From NCBI RefSeq assembly GCF_000337515.1, contig NZ_AOIQ01000021.1, forward strand, positions 117,834-181,833: DNA of 64,000 nucleotides, in the 5' to 3' direction. Position 1 is the stretch's first letter. Every line of letters begins with the position of its first letter. The notes beneath the pieces are model-generated. The model was not told the DNA's origin and searched no databases. It saw only the letters and a program-made list of their open reading frames with translations. The DNA is from Halovivax asiaticus JCM 14624. GTDB taxonomy: Archaea; Halobacteriota; Halobacteria; Halobacteriales; Natrialbaceae. Of the stretch, positions 20,240-35,014 are shown piece by piece. The position numbers and the translations under genes are program-made.

Positions 20240-20274
20240 GAGCTAGTCGGTATCCGTCTTCACTGATTCAGAAT

Positions 20275-20291
20275 GCTGGCCTCGGCACTCA
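20275..20291 (+). repeat. direct repeat A-left (island boundary)
   Basis: This 17-base copy (gctggcctcggcactca) is identical to 34853-34869. It overlaps the start of a longer repeat shared with 21061. Its position 35 bases after a core-gene stop fits an integration site in an intergenic space. Confidence 0.6.
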
Positions 20292-20864: not shown

Positions 20865-21060
20865 GACCTGATCATAGGTAGTCCTGTTTGTTCAAGAGGT
20901 GGGTATTGAAGTGGTGGAGACGTTCTCCAGCGGGACGTGGTCTGATTCACAGTGTCGATGTACTCCAGTGGTGAATCCAAAACTGACCGAGGCCTCTGGA
21001 TACCAAGGCCCCAGACAAACCCTCCCATTTCGTGCTCTGACCGCCAAAATCGGGGCCACT

Positions 21061-21104
21061 GCACTCACGACTCACAATCTATCCATAGTGAATGTGATTA
21101 GCGC
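21061..21104 (+). repeat. 44-bp direct repeat, second copy
   Basis: This is the partner of 20285-20328. The six or so bases before it (ggccactg) also resemble the ggcctcgg of repeat A and of the right boundary repeat, so all three sites share a common core ending in gcactca. Confidence 0.8.
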
Positions 21105-23791: not shown

Positions 23792-23908
23792 CTATGCGTG
23801 GAAGCTATCGCCGCAGTTTCGACAAGTTGCCCATCCACCTTGCTTCACTTTCTGCTTCTCGCCGCACTCGGGGCACTCACGCCAGACGGAGCGGTTGTGA
23901 TAACTCAT
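23792..23908 (-). CDS. 38-residue zinc-ribbon protein
   Basis: A short gene that is easy to miss. The frame starts with ATG at 23908, inside the TAATG that ends the upstream ATPase gene, and stops at 23792. The peptide begins MSYHNRSVWRECPECGEK and ends CRNCGDSFHA, so it has CxxC-x13-CxxC, a complete zinc ribbon. Translational coupling with the upstream gene and perfect Cys spacing argue that it is expressed. It could bind nucleic acid or help assemble the neighbouring proteins; this is unproven. Confidence 0.7.
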   Translation of the reverse strand: MSYHNRSVWRECPECGEKQKVKQGGWATCRNCGDSFHA

Positions 23909-25305
23909 TAATTGCTGATAGCCGCTTCTGCGACCTCGCCTAGCAGGCCTGTCAGTGCATCCTCGAACGGTTTCGAGAGGTCAGGTGCTCCTCCACTTCT
24001 CGGGTGTGCGACTTCGTGGAGCAACGTGCTGGCGAAATCTCGAACGCTGTTTAGTTGCTGACGTCGAATGACAATACGCTGTTCATTTCCATCCCAGACT
24101 CCATTTGCCATCTCGCCTCGCTCGGTCATTCGAATCGTCTCTGACACCCGTATCTTCTCTACAGGTGGGTTATTGAGGAGGTCGAGAATATCGTCCCTGC
24201 AATTCCACACCTCGCGCTCGTCCTCTGTCATTTCGTCCTCGGGGACCCAGTCGTACTCGAAACTCTCGTTGTACTCTTCGAGATACGTGCCAACGTCACG
24301 AAGGCGATTCCCCTCGGAATCTCGCTCGTCCTGGATCTCGTTACGGATGTTCTCGGGGACAGTGACGACTCGATACCCGTCTCTACGGGCATGGTTGAGC
24401 AGGTCCGCGTTCGAGTGTAGCTCATCCACGGTCGCAAATACAACGTCGTCCCGTTCGTTCAGGAGCTTTACCGCGTGCAGACGAATCGGTTTCCAATTCA
24501 CTTCATCGTGGGTTGTTCCATCCGTGAAGTTCTCGAAATCGTCGACAAGCCGCTGAGCGACTTCTGTGGTTTCACACTCCCGTAGAATATCTTTCACCCG
24601 CGAACTATAGGCTGTGCGCCCAACGTTTGAACGCTCCCGATTCAGGGCGTCTCGGACCTGCTTCGTCGTCTTCGTGATGTTGTAGCTGAAAAGGAAGTTC
24701 TCCTCGGTAGCGACCTTGAGCCCAGTAACGTAGATACGGGAATCCTCGCCTGCGGGGGAAGCGTAGACCTCTCCGAACTTGGTTTCCTCCAAGAGCTCGT
24801 CGTCGGTAAAGCGAAGAAAGTTGCTTTTGGCCTGATCGATTTGAGACTCCGTGATGCCATCGAGAACCACGTCCGTTCCATCGATATCACGCTCAGGCGG
24901 ATAGATGAGCCCGTGCAGTGTCTCAATGTCTTCGAAATCCGCCTTAGGCGCTTTCTCGACGGTTATTGTCTCGTGCTTCGAGTGAATGGTTACGTCGACC
25001 CCGTTACGGTAGAACGTCGCCAGCGCGTCCTTCAACCCAACGCCGAATTTGCCGATTACCTTGTCCGGGTTGTTCAGCTTCTCCTCGTCCTCGTTCTGCG
25101 TGAGGTGCTCGTGGCGTAGCCCTCGACCGTTATCCCGGATGTGCCATCTCCCCTGGTCGTCTTCATAGATTTCTACTTCACTCGTTTCTGTGAGGGCCTG
25201 TTCGTCGAGGGCGTTAGCGATTACCTCTCGGGCTGCATCTGCGACACCCCACGCCTCTAGCACCTCCTCCATGTTGAGGTCGAATTTTCGTGCCTGTTCG
25301 GACAT
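23908..25305 (-). CDS. GHKL ATPase fused to an HExxH metalloprotease-like domain
   Basis: A 465-residue protein with the ATP-binding motifs of the HSP90/MutL/MORC group: N-box AAREVIANALDEQ (Glu27, Asn31, Asp34), DNGRG (58-62) and GKFGVG (85-90). A middle region of about 300 residues has no clear family likeness. The C-terminus contains STLLHEVAHPRSGG with HEVAH at 430-434, and Glu448 or Glu457 could be the third zinc ligand. GHKL ATPases change shape on ATP binding, so nucleotide-gated proteolysis is a reasonable model. It heads an operon with a zinc ribbon, Mrr, a small protein and a membrane protein. I know no named defence system of this composition. Confidence 0.75.
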   Translation of the reverse strand: MSEQARKFDLNMEEVLEAWGVADAAREVIANALDEQALTETSEVEIYEDDQGRWHIRDNGRGLRHEHLTQNEDEEKLNNPDKVIGKFGVGLKDALATFYRNGVDVTIHSKHETITVEKAPKADFEDIETLHGLIYPPERDIDGTDVVLDGITESQIDQAKSNFLRFTDDELLEETKFGEVYASPAGEDSRIYVTGLKVATEENFLFSYNITKTTKQVRDALNRERSNVGRTAYSSRVKDILRECETTEVAQRLVDDFENFTDGTTHDEVNWKPIRLHAVKLLNERDDVVFATVDELHSNADLLNHARRDGYRVVTVPENIRNEIQDERDSEGNRLRDVGTYLEEYNESFEYDWVPEDEMTEDEREVWNCRDDILDLLNNPPVEKIRVSETIRMTERGEMANGVWDGNEQRIVIRRQQLNSVRDFASTLLHEVAHPRSGGAPDLSKPFEDALTGLLGEVAEAAISN

Positions 25306-25412
25306 ATACTCCCCCTTGGATCGGAATAGTCTTGAAAATTAGACAACCACTGTGAAAGTGAAATCGACCTAATCGCCGATAATGACGGCTCGTATTCTCA
25401 AAATCACCTACT

Positions 25413-25943
25413 TTATCCGAAATACCGACTTGCTCCTGGAAGACCCCTCTCCTGAGCAGTATCGGCGTAGATTCCCTTTCTGGTGTAGATATCTGGTTTA
25501 TAGTACAGCGTTTCCTCTATCCCGCACTTATTTCTCAGCAATTCGCGGACTCGAAAGACATCCTCTTTGTCGAAGTAGTTGGGTGTATAGACGACGATGA
25601 CATGGTTACCTCGATTCTCTTCTTCGCGACCATATTTGGCTGTCACCTTTGCTGAGTAGATTTCGTTCTCTTTGACCAACTCGGTCACGTAGCCCCAGAC
25701 GTCGTCGATCTCGGCGGGTTTGAGGAACACGTTCCACTTCCCAGAAAGTGATGTCGGGGAATCGTGTTGAAGCGCTTCTTCGTCTAATTCCCGAACAGTG
25801 TCGTTATCAGACTCTGGTATGTCGTTCGCTGTCATGTCTTTTTGCTTCAGAACATCGTGAGCCTCATAGTAGTCTTGCCTGTCGCCTTGAGCGTAAATCC
25901 AATATTGCTCTACCTCTTCGGATGGGGGGTGTGTGCCGGCCAT
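25413..25943 (-). CDS. DUF1917-like protein (putative phosphothreonine-lyase fold)
   Basis: A 176-residue protein from ATG 25943, the start that gives a compact polar N-terminus. SGKWNVFLKPAEIDDVWGYV, then EIYSAKVTAKYG, HVIVVYTPNYFDKEDVFRVRELL and LYYKPDIYTRKGIY match the pattern of the DUF1917/Bles03 group, which has been likened to OspF-type phosphothreonine lyases. Whether it is a lyase is unknown. The 5' end faces the exonuclease gene, so the two are divergent and share a 47-base gap. The assignment is from remembered family pattern. Confidence 0.55.
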   Translation of the reverse strand: MAGTHPPSEEVEQYWIYAQGDRQDYYEAHDVLKQKDMTANDIPESDNDTVRELDEEALQHDSPTSLSGKWNVFLKPAEIDDVWGYVTELVKENEIYSAKVTAKYGREEENRGNHVIVVYTPNYFDKEDVFRVRELLRNKCGIEETLYYKPDIYTRKGIYADTAQERGLPGASRYFG

Positions 25944-25990
25944 GCTACTGCAATTGTAACTCACCGGTTTCAATCCCGCTACCACCGACC

Positions 25991-26629
25991 TTGGAGTTAT
26001 TAGAAACCCGGAACAATCAGGAAACTGCTTTGCTCGTTTACGGCTACGATTTGGAAACGACAAGGTTCTCACCCTTCGAAGATCAAATCATCAGCGCACA
26101 GTATTCGTACGACGATGGAAACGTCTCGTTCTATCCTAGCTGGGAATACGAATCGGAACGAGAACTCCTTGTTGACTTTCTGGACGATTGGGCTGGGATC
26201 AAGCGGAAGCGTATCGGGGCTGACGGTGCGCTCTTTGTTGGGTTCAATATCCTCGGGTTTGATGCCCCGTTCCTTTTCCTGAAGTGCATCACTACCGACG
26301 GTGTGCTCAACGACTTGGGATGGTCATACGAGGATTGTTGGAACCAAATCTACCGATGGCCTTCATATCTCGACCTCGCACACCTTCTTGGAGCCGACTT
26401 CATCGGGATGGAGGCAGTACGCGGCGAGATTGTCGGTACACAGGGCGACTTCGCTGGTGAGGACGTGCCAGAGTACTACGAAAACGGTAAACACGAAATC
26501 ATCGAAGAGTACGTCCGTGACGAACTGGCTGCAATGGCAGCAATCTACGAGGAGCTTCGTGATTCCGCGTTCTTTGAAGAGCTAATGGGAATCCGTCGGC
26601 AAGTGGGCCTCGAACGAGAATTGGTATAG
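25991..26629 (+). CDS. DnaQ-type (RNase H fold) 3'-5' exonuclease
   Basis: A protein of about 210 residues. Exo I is YGYDLETTRFSP (D-x-E), Exo II is LFVGFNILGFDAPFLF, and Exo III would be the Tyr/Asp in EIIEEYVRDELAAMAAIYEEL. These match the proofreading exonuclease domain of family-B polymerases or stand-alone DEDDy nucleases. No ATG lies at the N-terminus; TTG at 25991 or 26030 is in frame, so the start is uncertain. It converges with the DUF6884 gene and diverges from the DUF1917-like gene. It is the only large gene of the island on the + strand. Confidence 0.65.
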   Translation: MELLETRNNQETALLVYGYDLETTRFSPFEDQIISAQYSYDDGNVSFYPSWEYESERELLVDFLDDWAGIKRKRIGADGALFVGFNILGFDAPFLFLKCITTDGVLNDLGWSYEDCWNQIYRWPSYLDLAHLLGADFIGMEAVRGEIVGTQGDFAGEDVPEYYENGKHEIIEEYVRDELAAMAAIYEELRDSAFFEELMGIRRQVGLERELV

Positions 26630-26637
26630 TTGTCCCC

Positions 26638-27345
26638 TCAGGAACTCAGGATTTCTGCACGCTCAGGGTGTTTTAATAGCTGCTCTAGATCCCGTATTTC
26701 TGCTGAAGACGCAACCTCGCGGAACAGTTTACCTCGCAATGCCATCCACGTCGTTTCCAGGGCTTCCCGTTCCGTTTCTGTAGCAGGAATCCAAATACAA
26801 TCACCAACGGACTGTTTACTCCCCTTCGAAGCAAACGCAAATGCTGTCGTTTGTTTAGGAATCTCGGTTAGTGCATCGGCCACTGACAAGAGGTATGGCT
26901 CACTCAACACGGCGAACAGCAAGTCGTATTCTCGAGTCAGTATATTATTGAACGTCTGAGGAATGCTCTTCTCGCGGCCGACTGCCTCGATCGCCTCGTC
27001 ATTCGTCAGGCCGTCAATATTGTATCCTGCTCGCTTGGCCCGCTTTCGAACGGATTCGATATCGCTGAAACCACACTCATAGGACGGTATCTCCGTATCG
27101 TCTCGTAGCAACCCGAATCCTGCGGAAATGATATACCAGTCGACATCTGCAACCTCACGGAGATGAGTGACTGCCGTCTTGACGTGCTGGTGTTCACGAC
27201 CAGTATACATGCCTGCCGCAGTCGTGGTGTACTCGGCATGTTCCTGTACTAGTTCCCCACGCGAGTGCCCGTCTACGTCCTCACAGTCAAGAACGGGGGC
27301 GTATCGTTTGTCTTTGGAACAGGGCGAGAGTACGCAGACATCCAT
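26638..27345 (-). CDS. DUF6884/YaaA-like protein
   Basis: A 235-residue protein. The opening MDVCVLSPCSKDKRYAPV has the CSKxK motif and DWYIISAGFGLLRDDTEIPSYE the central strand-turn of the DUF6884/YaaA-like group. Some YaaA-fold proteins (DpdC) take part in 7-deazaguanine DNA modification, so a nucleobase-chemistry role is possible. It follows the DsbA-like gene by 123 bases in the same direction and may share its transcript. The function here is not known. Confidence 0.6.
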   Translation of the reverse strand: MDVCVLSPCSKDKRYAPVLDCEDVDGHSRGELVQEHAEYTTTAAGMYTGREHQHVKTAVTHLREVADVDWYIISAGFGLLRDDTEIPSYECGFSDIESVRKRAKRAGYNIDGLTNDEAIEAVGREKSIPQTFNNILTREYDLLFAVLSEPYLLSVADALTEIPKQTTAFAFASKGSKQSVGDCIWIPATETEREALETTWMALRGKLFREVASSAEIRDLEQLLKHPERAEILSS

Positions 27346-27468
27346 CCGTCGTTCTATTCAAAGACGTCACACCGAGTGGTGAAACTCTTTGTGCGTCATT
27401 GAGAGGAACCCATTGAAATGGTTCGTCAGGACAACATCAACCGCTTCTATGGCTTACTCGACGAGAAT

Positions 27469-28710
27469 TTAAACGGTTTCCCAAAATGTACCACAGTTGA
27501 ACTCTACTGCTCGGATTTCAGCGGAACTACGGAGTTTCTTAGTAGCGGTTTCTCGCGAGAGGTCGAATACTTCCATCACTTCTTCTGTAGCAACTGGTCC
27601 ATGTTCCTCTACGAACTTGGTGAGTGGCTGGAGAACAGGCTCTGGTTCCATGGTGTGACCGAGGAATGCGGCTAGCGCTCGTTCGTACTCAACGCGGCCT
27701 TTCCAAGTCCGAGGAATATTATCGATCTCAACCTTCATCACCGGCATCTCTGTGGCTTCAGGAGTTCGTTCGAGTGTAACGGCGTCCCAGTCCTCTGCCA
27801 GTCGGCGTTTATTTAGACCGACGTCGGCGGCGAGGTCCAGAAGTAATTCTCTGTTTTCGATATTTCGTCCTTTAACCTGAGCTGCTAACCGTAACCGGCG
27901 AAGATAGTTTCGAGCTAGTTGTTCGTCTTGCTTTTTGGCTGCGTTGAATGCTCGGGAGGAAAGTTTTGTAGAGGTTGGTGGCTCTTCTTTCCACACGTCT
28001 TCGTTTGTGGGTATTCTGTGGGTTTCTGCGTTTTCTCGCCATTTCTCTGCTTGGTGTAGAGGATCATCGAACGTGCGGACAGGTGCTAGCTCGTAGGAGA
28101 TTTCGAGTCTATCTCCGAATGTGTATTGCAGGTGTTTTAACACCGGTTCCATTCCCCAGCCGGTGTTGTCCCAGGGATCGGTGTGGACAACGATCGAGGC
28201 TTCTTTCTCCTTTTCGTCTTCTTCTTCATCTTCTTCGGTGTCCTCTTCATCCTCGTCATACTCTTCATCGTTCTCTTGGTCATTTTCTTGGTCTTCAAAG
28301 CTGTCAGAGTCTGAATCTCCTTCCGTCTCCTCCGACTCACCGTCTTCAGGCTCTTCACACTCCGTATCATCGGATTCAGAATCATCTCCCTCTTTTTCGT
28401 CTTCTGCTTCCTCGTCTTCACCGTTTTCGCTGCCCGAACTACCGCTACCGCTGCCTCCACTGCCTCCAGCTGCTCCCGCTCCTCCAACCCCAGCAGCGCC
28501 AGCGGCACCTCCGCCAGCACTGGATGCCGCAGCTCCGGTAGCACCAGCCACAGCAGCCGCTCCGCCTCCGCTATCATCTTCATCTTCCTTGGAGCCTCCT
28601 GAGTCGCCGTATTCGGTGATGTCTCCGTCTGTTCTACCGTCGTCATCGTCGTTTGAATCGCTACTTCCGCTACTGCTGCCTCCGCCGGAGGGTCCTAATC
28701 CCATTAGCAT
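27469..28710 (-). CDS. redox-dead DsbA-fold protein with acidic tail and winged helix
   Basis: A 413-residue protein of unusual build. Residues 1-170 are low complexity: Gly/Ser/Ala stretches and then long Glu/Asp runs, probably disordered. From 171 a DsbA/FrnE-like thioredoxin fold follows (VVHTDPWDNTGWGMEPVLKHL; PPTSTKLSSRAFNAAKKQ; NYLRRLRLAAQVKGRNI). Where relatives have the CxxC pair, this one has W-D-N-T-G-W, so no redox chemistry is expected. The C-terminal 60 residues (EEHGPVATEEVMEVFDLSRETATKKLRSSAEI) are a winged helix. It overlaps the TIM-barrel gene by seven bases; an ATG at 28704 would give a TAATG junction instead. Confidence 0.7.
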   Translation of the reverse strand: MLMGLGPSGGGSSSGSSDSNDDDDGRTDGDITEYGDSGGSKEDEDDSGGGAAAVAGATGAAASSAGGGAAGAAGVGGAGAAGGSGGSGSGSSGSENGEDEEAEDEKEGDDSESDDTECEEPEDGESEETEGDSDSDSFEDQENDQENDEEYDEDEEDTEEDEEEDEKEKEASIVVHTDPWDNTGWGMEPVLKHLQYTFGDRLEISYELAPVRTFDDPLHQAEKWRENAETHRIPTNEDVWKEEPPTSTKLSSRAFNAAKKQDEQLARNYLRRLRLAAQVKGRNIENRELLLDLAADVGLNKRRLAEDWDAVTLERTPEATEMPVMKVEIDNIPRTWKGRVEYERALAAFLGHTMEPEPVLQPLTKFVEEHGPVATEEVMEVFDLSRETATKKLRSSAEIRAVEFNCGTFWETV

Positions 28711-29579
28711 GATTTGTAGTCGTTGAGTTTCGGTTGCTTGTGGCCGTGGTTAGCAAACAGTGCTTCTTCCCTGCGGGGACGCCATTCTGCGAACATGTCT
28801 TGTGAGAAACTTCCATTTCCGTCGGAGCAGCTCTTGATGAACTGGGTGAGTCCGCTCGCCCCTGTAACCCGTGGAGGAAGTTTTCTGAGGTGGGTTTCGC
28901 CGTGTCGGGCGATGGCGAGAACGTTATCGGGATCAATGACCGTGATGAGATTATTGATGTGGTCAATCAGATCATTGATCTGATTCCCGGTCGATCCTCC
29001 ACAGTATTGCCGTGTATAGAACGCGAAATTCGTGAATCCGAGGCGGTGAAAGAGATCGACGTACTCCTCGAAATGCCACTGCTTCATACCCTTTGCAAGC
29101 GGGAGAAGTTCGATTTCCCAGCCTTGTTCAGCAATTTCCTGGTTCAACCATTTGAGCCGGATTTTGTATTCTCTGATCCCGCCCAGCTGCTTTGCACCAT
29201 CATCTTCCCTGTAGACGGTGCCGGTATCAGGAATGTAAATCGCGGGCTGGATCTGTTTCAGTATGCGTCGGATTTGTGCTCTGGTGCGGTTTCGCAGGAT
29301 TTCGTCCTTTTCTGTTGCTGTTACGATGGGGACTTGCCAGGGTTCAAGGACAGCGTCAAGAGTACCGTATTCATCGAGAACTTCGACGACGTCACAGAAG
29401 TTGACCATCACGTATGTGATGAGCATGTTTCCTTTCAGGAAATCCTCAAATCCGTCGTGAGGAATCTCGATTCGGAGTATGATGCCTCTTGGGAATTGTT
29501 TGATCCGTTGGGAAACAACTGCCTCTCCTAGAGTCTGCTGGTCTCTGCTGGGACCTCGGGCTTTTGACGACGAACTCAT
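28704..29579 (-). CDS. TIM-barrel-like protein, tentatively TGT/DpdA-related
   Basis: A 291-residue protein. Alternating strands and helices such as VPIVTATEKDE, PAIYIPDTGTVY, IELLPLAKGMKQWHFEEYVDLFHRLGFTNFAFYT and NVLAIARHG followed by HLRKLPPRVTGASG recall the tRNA-guanine transglycosylase/DpdA barrel, where a late strand precedes a loop that positions the base. The catalytic Asp cannot be fixed by eye, so the likeness is weak. It is first in a set with the DsbA-fold and DUF6884 genes; the latter is itself likened to the DpdC fold. A role in nucleobase replacement would be consistent but is only inferred. Confidence 0.4.
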   Translation of the reverse strand: MSSSSKARGPSRDQQTLGEAVVSQRIKQFPRGIILRIEIPHDGFEDFLKGNMLITYVMVNFCDVVEVLDEYGTLDAVLEPWQVPIVTATEKDEILRNRTRAQIRRILKQIQPAIYIPDTGTVYREDDGAKQLGGIREYKIRLKWLNQEIAEQGWEIELLPLAKGMKQWHFEEYVDLFHRLGFTNFAFYTRQYCGGSTGNQINDLIDHINNLITVIDPDNVLAIARHGETHLRKLPPRVTGASGLTQFIKSCSDGNGSFSQDMFAEWRPRREEALFANHGHKQPKLNDYKSC

Positions 29580-29986: not shown

Positions 29987-30334
29987 CTAGTAAAAATTCT
30001 CTCGCTCTCCTGTTTCGAACAACTTAATGATTTTCTGGGGATCTTCCTGATTTTCCCCATGCAAGTCTTCACAATCAGCACAAGCGTTGTGTTCCATGTC
30101 GTCACGTTCGATACATTCTGGACAAGAAGAGAAAACTATTCGAATAGGATCATTTCTGTGTTTTCTCTTTCCCTCATATTCCCCTTTGAGACGAGTAGAG
30201 TTCCCCTTTGGATCCTCTACGATACCCTGGACACCTTCTATGACCGAGTCTCCTTTTCCCTGCTTATTGAGTTTCTTGTAGTCTCGTTCAAACTTTGGCT
30301 GTTGTCTAGCTTCAAAATTCTCGCCTTCAGACAT
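29987..30334 (-). CDS. RelE-like toxin with a Cys4 insert
   Basis: A 115-residue protein. The fold pattern of RelE/ParE toxins is visible: KFERDYKKLNKQGKGDSVIEGVQGIVEDP, then RLKGEYEGKRKHR and IRIVFSS, and the last strand IIKLFETGERENFY. Between the last strands there is CPEC-x10-CADC (71-88), a zinc knuckle not normal for RelE. Relatives cut mRNA in the ribosome A site. The start ATG 30334 overlaps the PanA gene end by eight bases. A second in-frame start at 30376 lies inside the antitoxin gene and is less likely. Confidence 0.7.
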   Translation of the reverse strand: MSEGENFEARQQPKFERDYKKLNKQGKGDSVIEGVQGIVEDPKGNSTRLKGEYEGKRKHRNDPIRIVFSSCPECIERDDMEHNACADCEDLHGENQEDPQKIIKLFETGERENFY

Positions 30335-31058
30335 CGATGGAAAAAGAAGAACTAGGTTCTTTGCGAGCCTCTTCAACAGCAGTATTCACTGACTTTCTCG
30401 ATCTCTCATGAAGCAATATGTCTAAGGTTTCAGCCCATTCGTCAGAGAGTTCGAATCTCTGGTTGTATTCGTCATTAGATAACGACCAGATGATATCTGT
30501 ACCCTTCGGGATGTCTTCGACTTTTTGCTCAGTTCCAGACGCCATCAGTTCTACATTCATATCGTAGACTATGTTTTTGAGTTTGTAACCAGGAATATCT
30601 CCATACTTTTCGATAGTCAAATTAATTTCCCGGACTATGTCGCTATTATCAGACAGGACAGGCGTTGCTTGGTCTAGTACTTCTTTTCCTTGAGAGAGTA
30701 TCTCCCCCGACTCCTCAGATACAAACCTGTTTTCACAAAGATATTCGTGATCCTCATACACTTCCTTACTCATTGGACCGTGTTCCCATCTAAAAAAGGA
30801 ATATTTGAGTCCATCGATCCCTTCTTGGACTAAAGAGTTTTCACTAAGAAAGACTAGTTTTTGGAGCTTCACGTCACCTGTGATCCGGCTTGTTTCTGAA
30901 ACTCTGTCAAACAGATGCAACAATAATAACCGGTCGACAAGTCTGTCCTTATAGTCCCGCGGGTCCCCGTACTCTTGGCTCATTACTAGACCATAGTTTG
31001 GACAAAGCGCAAAAATCTTGTGTCGTAATTCACCATTTAAATCTTTCTTTAGAGCCAT
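30327..31058 (-). CDS. PanA (Panacea-domain) antitoxin
   Basis: A 243-residue protein from ATG 31058. The Panacea/SocA-like segment is VKLQKLVFLSENSLVQEGIDGLKYSFFRWEHGPMSKEVYED near residues 55-100, followed by helices. The Panacea domain is known as a promiscuous antitoxin that pairs with many toxin folds. Here it precedes a RelE-like toxin with an 8-base overlap, so the pair should form one operon with the antitoxin made first. The long frame upstream of the chosen ATG has no likeness to the family. Confidence 0.75.
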   Translation of the reverse strand: MALKKDLNGELRHKIFALCPNYGLVMSQEYGDPRDYKDRLVDRLLLLHLFDRVSETSRITGDVKLQKLVFLSENSLVQEGIDGLKYSFFRWEHGPMSKEVYEDHEYLCENRFVSEESGEILSQGKEVLDQATPVLSDNSDIVREINLTIEKYGDIPGYKLKNIVYDMNVELMASGTEQKVEDIPKGTDIIWSLSNDEYNQRFELSDEWAETLDILLHERSRKSVNTAVEEARKEPSSSFSIDV

Positions 31059-31246
31059 TGTAGATGGGGTATCATGTCTACTATCACTATCCACAACGCC
31101 TAGGAGTGTCCGGGCATAAGTTTCTGATGTAGAAAATGAGCAAAAATTGAGGGTCTCAACAATGTGACTGGGAGAATGAGGTAGGCCTAGCCGAAGAAAC
31201 GACTTACGTTGCCCTCTATCCCAATCGAAAGCACGTCGAAGAGTGG

Positions 31247-31492
31247 ATGGAAGAAGCAGAAGAGCAGGGCTACGGGAGCCAATCGAAGTACCTGTACGAG
31301 CTGATACAGGAGGCCCGTGCTGCTCGGAAAGAGGGGTTTCTCGCGTACAGCCAAAACGAGTCACAGGCCGAAGAGCTACAACTAAAAATCGAGCAATTAG
31401 AGGACAAACTCGAAAATGCTCGCAACTCCGAACCCGGTGAAATTGATATCGCCCACGAAGAGTTTGTGACTGCGTTCCTCACCGAGCGGTAG
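31247..31492 (+). CDS. DNA-binding-like remnant of an integrase-linked gene
   Basis: The 81 residues from ATG 31247 begin MEEAEEQGYGSQSKYLYELIQEARAARKEGF and end with a coiled coil. The open frame continues upstream with EETTYVALYPNRKHVEEW, which is the normal N-terminal part of this haloarchaeal family, but there is no start codon before a TGA at 31148. The gene is therefore either translated in a shortened form or decayed. In haloarchaeal proviruses this kind of gene usually sits directly before an integrase; none follows here. Confidence 0.5.
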   Translation: MEEAEEQGYGSQSKYLYELIQEARAARKEGFLAYSQNESQAEELQLKIEQLEDKLENARNSEPGEIDIAHEEFVTAFLTER

Positions 31493-34516: not shown

Positions 34517-35014
34517 TATATAGCTGCTTCTTATCCACACCTCAAAGTTGTAACGACGTGAGAATTCGCTCTCATGATGGAAATAATCGAGCATAGAAAT
34601 CTAACAGTACATCGAATGTCTTCTCTCCATTTTGTATGGATGTTTCTATCGTATTATGCTCGTTTCTCCTAATTGTGGAATACGAGACTGATCAATCACG
34701 GTTGACGCACCACTCCCGGTATGACTGGGGCCTATGTGACGCCTCAGAGTGTACTCTATTCGCATTTTGATTACGACTGTCCTCTCTCAGAGGGTAGTAG
34801 ACGCAATTCTCTGACGTTCGTTCACTTCTTTCCCGAAATGTATGGATAGAAAGCTGGCCTCGGCACTCATAGGGCTCGTCGTCACCGGTTGCCGAGACCG
34901 GTTCGGCCCGGGTGCATCGTCATCGGCCACGCGGGGATAGTCGGTGCCGGCACAAACCCGTTGCCCATCGGGTGTGCTTTGGGCCCGACATCCATCGGGT
35001 GCGTTCTAATTCCG
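34517..35014. other. island right border, no gene
   Basis: This 498-base stretch holds no coding frame I can support. The left part is AT-rich like the island; the right part after 34870 is GC-rich like the host. The change falls at the 17-bp boundary repeat. A short repeat of catcgggtg occurs twice near 34965 and 34990. Just before the boundary repeat is tatggatag, the complement of a segment that follows repeat A. Confidence 0.6.
34853..34869 (+). repeat. direct repeat C (island right boundary)
   Basis: Seventeen bases identical to 20275-20291. Composition changes sharply at this point, which supports its role as an integration junction. Confidence 0.6.

Follow-up and report, generated by a model that had tools for sequence, protein, structure and literature searches.

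The analysed window, a 64,000-nucleotide stretch of contig NZ_AOIQ01000021.1 of Halovivax asiaticus JCM 14624, carries a two-gene unit in which a TGT-superfamily barrel protein is encoded directly upstream of a YjbH-like protein with a long N-terminal tail. The pair is interpreted as a dead Cap10-like reader with an N-terminally tagged partner, probably antiviral in role, and this reading is given a probability of roughly 60%. It is proposed that the pair represents the reader module of type IV CBASS in a variant form, with neither a cyclase nor Cap9. The features of the locus are the following.

28704–29579, minus strand: Cap10-like barrel protein of the TGT superfamily, 291 aa, lacking the TGT catalytic and zinc motifs (PADLOC TGT PDLC00912, E = 5.1e-30)
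28716–28736, minus strand: QPKLNDY, PIP-box-like motif at the C-terminus of the barrel (residues 282–288)
27469–28704, minus strand: partner of 411 aa resembling YjbH/SpxH, probably starting with MGLGPSGGG (Thioredoxin_5 1.8e-14, PDB 6ghb)
28213–28704, minus strand: N-terminal tail of the partner, 164 residues beginning with Met-Gly
27469–28212, minus strand: folded core of the partner, with a DsbA-like domain without CxxC and a C-terminal winged-helix-like domain (AlphaFold)
26638–27345, minus strand: DUF6884/DpdC-like (YaaA superfamily) protein, 235 aa, outside the unit (Pfam, PADLOC)
20240 to about 34856–34870, no strand: low-GC island holding the unit, about 14.6 kb (GC 0.48–0.57 against 0.59–0.67 in the flanks)

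The three minus-strand ORFs listed in a preliminary description of this DNA (28704–29579, 27469–28710 and 26638–27345) are all present. Read from its first ATG, the partner ORF spans 27469–28710 and encodes 413 aa beginning with MLMGLGPSGGG. A start at the ATG at 28704 gives 411 aa; since this ATG, the third codon, overlaps the stop codon of the barrel as TAATG, MGLGPSGGG is the likely start.

Barrel Protein

Residues 22–273 of the barrel match the PADLOC 'TGT' model at the E-value given above, which bears out a likeness to TGTs that the preliminary description had called weak. No match was found in Pfam, PHROGs or NCBIfam, and the barrel profile did not match any PDB sequence. Accession PDLC00912 directly follows PDLC00911 'QueC', and PDLC00768–00824 are CBASS cyclase models; because of this adjoining QueC accession and the cyclase models in the range, PDLC00912 is most likely the type IV CBASS Cap10 model, as judged from accession order. 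Zymomonas TGT structures are the best PDB matches of the AlphaFold model (Foldseek probability 1.00), but the E-value is only 2e-3 and the model is of low confidence (pLDDT 49), so these matches are taken as supporting only. A profile-profile alignment of the barrel with arcTGT is collinear over 240 columns and is not significant.

The DSG[GSA][FY], Asp-nucleophile and CxCxxC zinc motifs are absent from all 71 barrels compared (that of the window and 70 haloarchaeal relatives), whereas 20 of 20 haloarchaeal housekeeping arcTGTs possess them. On the basis of these sequences, the barrel is proposed to be a catalytically dead TGT. Additional full-length TGT/DpdA-like genes (L228–L232), distinct from the barrel, occur in the related haloarchaea G030, G107 and G126, and the barrel has no sequence match to them. 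The lost motifs and this lack of similarity rule out DpdA, the identity suggested earlier.

The profile search found the barrel in 58 of 391 Halobacteria, and 18 of the 125 genomes of the family Natrialbaceae encode it. Its distribution is patchy, in islands and on plasmids. Nine haloarchaeal plasmid records match the barrel of the window, and all of these genes are annotated as 'hypothetical protein'. One pattern scan of viral contigs revealed no relative.

YjbH-like Partner

The DsbA fold without CxxC, predicted earlier for the partner, was confirmed. The protein matches Pfam Thioredoxin_5 (1.8e-14), and its sequence profile matches PDB 6ghb with an E-value of 5e-23. The AlphaFold model of the core is confident (pLDDT 90, pTM 0.87), and its best PDB match is YjbH of the Spx-YjbH complex, a Geobacillus protein (TM 0.84). 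Bacterial YjbH binds Spx for degradation by ClpXP. The window's partner shares the DsbA-like domain and the C-terminal domain with this YjbH/SpxH adaptor, but it has no CxxC, carries a 164-residue Gly/acidic tail and belongs to an archaeal host. Delivery of Spx to ClpXP is known for the adaptor, whereas the likeness here is one of fold and sequence.

The tail of the window's partner consists of 38% Asp/Glu and 46% Gly/Ala/Ser. All 24 barrel-linked YjbH-like copies have tails of 106–188 residues rich in the same amino acids, and none of the 24 has a CxxC. In barrel-free YjbH homologues, in contrast, the site is mostly CTWCWG and a long tail is missing; the exceptions are L206 and L207, which are interrupted or fragmentary, and L191, which has neither CxxC nor barrel, while two further barrel-free copies read CTWSWG or CAWSWD. 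Therefore, the loss of the redox site and the gain of the tail track the barrel.

Partner Families Downstream of the Barrel

The gene directly downstream of the barrel nearly always belongs to one of several non-homologous families. YjbH-like proteins are found in 24 loci, CBASS CD-NTases in 22 and a short acidic family in 15; a second CD-NTase clade, a ThsB-type TIR protein and three uncharacterised kinds are rarer, with single or few cases. The barrel-linked cyclases match the PADLOC Cyclase models (up to 7e-161) and Pfam SMODS. Mapped onto the barrel tree, the partner families require six label changes, which is the minimum possible, against a mean of 33.6 for shuffled labels, and the barrels therefore co-evolve with their partners. 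The output domain downstream of the barrel has been exchanged several times.

The short acidic family has no match in Pfam or PADLOC and contains a conserved FIYGDIVHD (L034:9309–9767, L028:8192–8914 and 13 more). In L138 (4475–4990, minus strand), the barrel is paired with a Met-Gly-tailed ThsB-type TIR protein, and this pair is possibly a Thoeris-like variant with the same N-terminal device. Rare partners beginning with Met-Gly-Gly (MGGRYGG, MGGGDS, MGGGNR) lie downstream of the barrel in L140, L141, L142, L144 and L151, and the one in L151 resembles a kinase on visual inspection. TrmB-like and Panacea genes in divergent orientation adjoin the barrel in the cyclase-type loci L032, L033, L035, L107, L111, L113, L114, L116 and L117. 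Most acidic-family loci, and several of the cyclase type, encode an HFX_2341/DUF6293-type regulator divergently from the barrel (e.g., L029:9648–10592, L034, L036, L037 and relatives).

N-terminal Glycine and the Search for Cap9

Met-Gly stands at the called start of all 22 cyclases and all 7 proteins of the rare kinds, of 5 out of 15 acidic-family proteins and of 9 out of 24 YjbH-like proteins; 9 more of the latter have an in-frame Met-Gly (ATG) at codon 4–5. The background value is 11 of 147 ORFs. The distance of Met-Gly from the stop codon of the barrel is variable (including −23, −11, −1, 0, +1, +2 and +3), which rules out the ATGGGTAA overlap as the cause of Met-Gly.

Cap10 of type IV CBASS binds the CD-NTase at its deazaguanylated N-terminus (PMC11996544). 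This CD-NTase starts with MGGS, and Cap9 deazaguanylates the glycine (PMC13279940). QatB starts with MGTS; the start is essential in Qat, and the G2D replacement abolishes defence (PMC13279940). The N-terminal glycine of type IV CBASS CD-NTases and QatB is modified, or presumed to be modified, with 7-deazaguanine. The window's MGLGPSGGG is likewise an N-terminal Gly motif, yet not the exact MGGS of type IV CBASS.

Six YjbH-type loci read MFVFLGSYSGG, without Met before the Gly, and ten acidic-family partners start with MPRKGG or MTRKxGG; a free N-terminal glycine is therefore not universal. A leader M(F/V)(V/I)F before Met-Gly was observed in two unrelated partner families (L106 and L112; L098–L102, L153, L155 and L160). 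In L106 and L112, the same bases as those of the MFVF stretch, ATGTTCGTATTCATGGG, lie inside the reading frame of the barrel. Since the leader there is part of the barrel gene read in a different frame, it may have been left behind when partners were exchanged.

No Cap9/QueC gene was found near the barrel in the 18 barrel-bearing genomes. Full-length housekeeping QueC is present once per genome in this set, and twice in two genomes, never near the barrel. The locus in the window likewise has no Cap9, and the housekeeping QueC of the host is encoded elsewhere in the genome. With no Cap9 nearby, the tag, if present, would therefore come from the housekeeping QueC or from another enzyme. The same absence, together with the MPRKGG/MTRKTGG and MFVFLG starts of some lineages, would agree with a different explanation, in which the barrel is a Cap10-like binder of an unmodified tail with N-terminal Gly (or Pro/Thr) and no nucleobase is involved in haloarchaea. 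This is considered unlikely: the TGT-like family and the Met-Gly starts are kept across unrelated partners, and the haloarchaeal CD-NTase type matches the system for which the tag is essential (PMC11996544).

PIP-box-like Motifs

An archaeal PIP box usually stands at the C-terminal end of a protein, where host FEN1 reads QSGLDRWT. A C-terminal Q..[LIVM]..[FYW] pattern was found in 53 of 67 distinct barrel C-termini, compared with about 1 in 20 shuffled C-termini and 22 of 160 in a background set that still included barrels. Residue Q282 of the barrel is nearly invariant in the family. The tails carry similar motifs (QTGIDDF, QTSLDDY) in 20 of 23 cases for the YjbH-like proteins and in 9 of 21 for the cyclases, where fewer than one is expected in each set. 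The PIP-box consensus is QxxI/L/MxxFF/Y (PMC2737543). The barrel in the window ends with QPKLNDYK, in which the second aromatic residue is missing, and the tail of its partner has only the degenerate DGDITEY. Binding of PCNA by barrels and tails, predicted from these motifs, is therefore regarded as a lead and not as a result.

Proposed Mechanism

The two genes would form a module akin to type IV CBASS, with the YjbH-like protein in the place of the CD-NTase. After removal of the initiator Met, the N-terminus of the partner would be a glycine, and the analogy to type IV CBASS makes its conjugation to a 7-deazaguanine base probable. The 7-deazaguanine connection made in the preliminary description is retained in this sense, by analogy only. 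The housekeeping QueC would attach the tag, Cap9 being absent nearby, and the dead, Cap10-like TGT barrel would hold the long disordered tail of the neighbouring protein by its N-terminus. The redox-dead YjbH-like domain would provide the output, most likely by binding a target protein as an adaptor. The PIP-like motifs on the barrel and many tails may place the pair at the PCNA clamp, where viral disturbance of replication could lead to the release or activation of the partner.

As in type IV CBASS, the gene of a Cap10/TGT-family barrel lies directly upstream of the gene of a protein with a disordered tail starting with Met-Gly, and sister loci of the window's unit encode true CBASS cyclases. 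The locus in the window differs in the absence of CD-NTase, effector and Cap9 and in the presence of the YjbH-like partner and the PIP-like motifs. With qatABCD it shares a partner whose long disordered N-terminus starts with Met-Gly (MGTS in QatB), outside CBASS; however, it has no QueC-family QatC, no QatA and no QatD, and a TGT-like barrel is found instead.

The pair might also be a toxin-antitoxin or proteolysis-control system, in which the barrel keeps a YjbH-like adaptor inactive and has no nucleobase-related or antiviral role. Two co-inherited genes with overlapping start and stop, the YjbH fold of the partner and the adjoining PanAT-like genes are all compatible with such a system. However, the partners of this barrel also include CBASS cyclases and a TIR protein, and the barrel occurs patchily, in islands and on plasmids; this possibility is judged quite improbable.

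Genomic Island and the DUF6884 Gene

The low-GC island sits at the 3′ end of an sR-tMet C/D-box RNA gene (Rfam RF02163, 34856–34928, minus strand), and copies of the end sequence of this gene, AGCTGGCCTCGGCACTCA, are found at 20270–20291 and, in a weaker form, at 21046–21067. The integration site lies in a small RNA gene that does not encode a tRNA. A genome of the same genus has about 1.5 kb of other sequence in place of the island. The island also encodes a type IIG-like restriction-modification protein, a PDC-S02 Mrr protein and a PD-Lambda-3-like protein, and a Panacea gene (30327–31364) lies beside a ParE/RelE-like gene (29987–30334); the location in a defence island, as described earlier, is correct. 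A protein of the Bles03 family (2.8e-17), which is named after a eukaryotic protein, is encoded in the island at 25413–26072 (minus strand).

The 235-aa protein had been described as YaaA-like, and it does match Pfam DUF6884 with 29.0 bits, against a cut-off of 30, and DpdC-like in PADLOC (6.6e-13). DUF6884 relatives are present in 75 of 391 Halobacteria, and the barrel accompanies them in 16 of these 75, where 11 would be expected (P 0.06). The two genes are neighbours only in the window and in none of the 15 other genomes that encode both. Within the 24 YjbH-type loci, no third gene is conserved beyond the pair and its antisense shadows. Co-occurrence thus rules out the three genes as one system, as they had been presented, and leaves the barrel and its YjbH-like partner as the conserved pair. 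In the window, DUF6884 is close to a sacsin/HATPase-like gene (23908–27345 for the two), and in L173 they are neighbours. Because this copy of the HATPase gene adjoining DUF6884 in L173 (86% identical to that of the window) links the two, DUF6884 belongs to a different module, and together with the sacsin/HATPase-like gene it is probably a separate defence module.

The idea that the three genes form a DpdA/DpdC-like system that modifies DNA with 7-deazaguanine or senses bases, to which the TGT superfamily of the barrel and the chance closeness of a DpdC-like gene gave rise, can be dismissed as highly improbable, as the barrel has lost the catalytic Asp and the zinc motif and does not resemble the extra full-length TGT/DpdA-like genes of its relatives, the DpdC-like gene is unlinked elsewhere, and the Cap10 group binds a protein N-terminus and does not modify DNA.

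Implications for Haloarchaeal Immunity

Deazaguanylation of proteins occurs in type IV CBASS and has been suggested for Qat. The loci described here suggest that the tagging, or at least the Cap10 reader, is a general module acting on many different effectors. More broadly, and only tentatively, a nucleobase tag read by a dead TGT could be a portable switch across haloarchaeal immunity, run by the housekeeping QueC in place of Cap9, tethered to PCNA and used by at least eight kinds of tailed partner, among them cyclases of two clades, YjbH-like adaptors and TIR proteins. With such a switch, the output domain would be swapped and the Gly-started tail kept. A tagged N-terminus is predicted on non-CBASS proteins, where the tag would have to be attached without Cap9, and the replication clamp would be a possible sensor site. 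The two-gene unit of this salt-loving archaeon suggests that tagging reaches well beyond CBASS.
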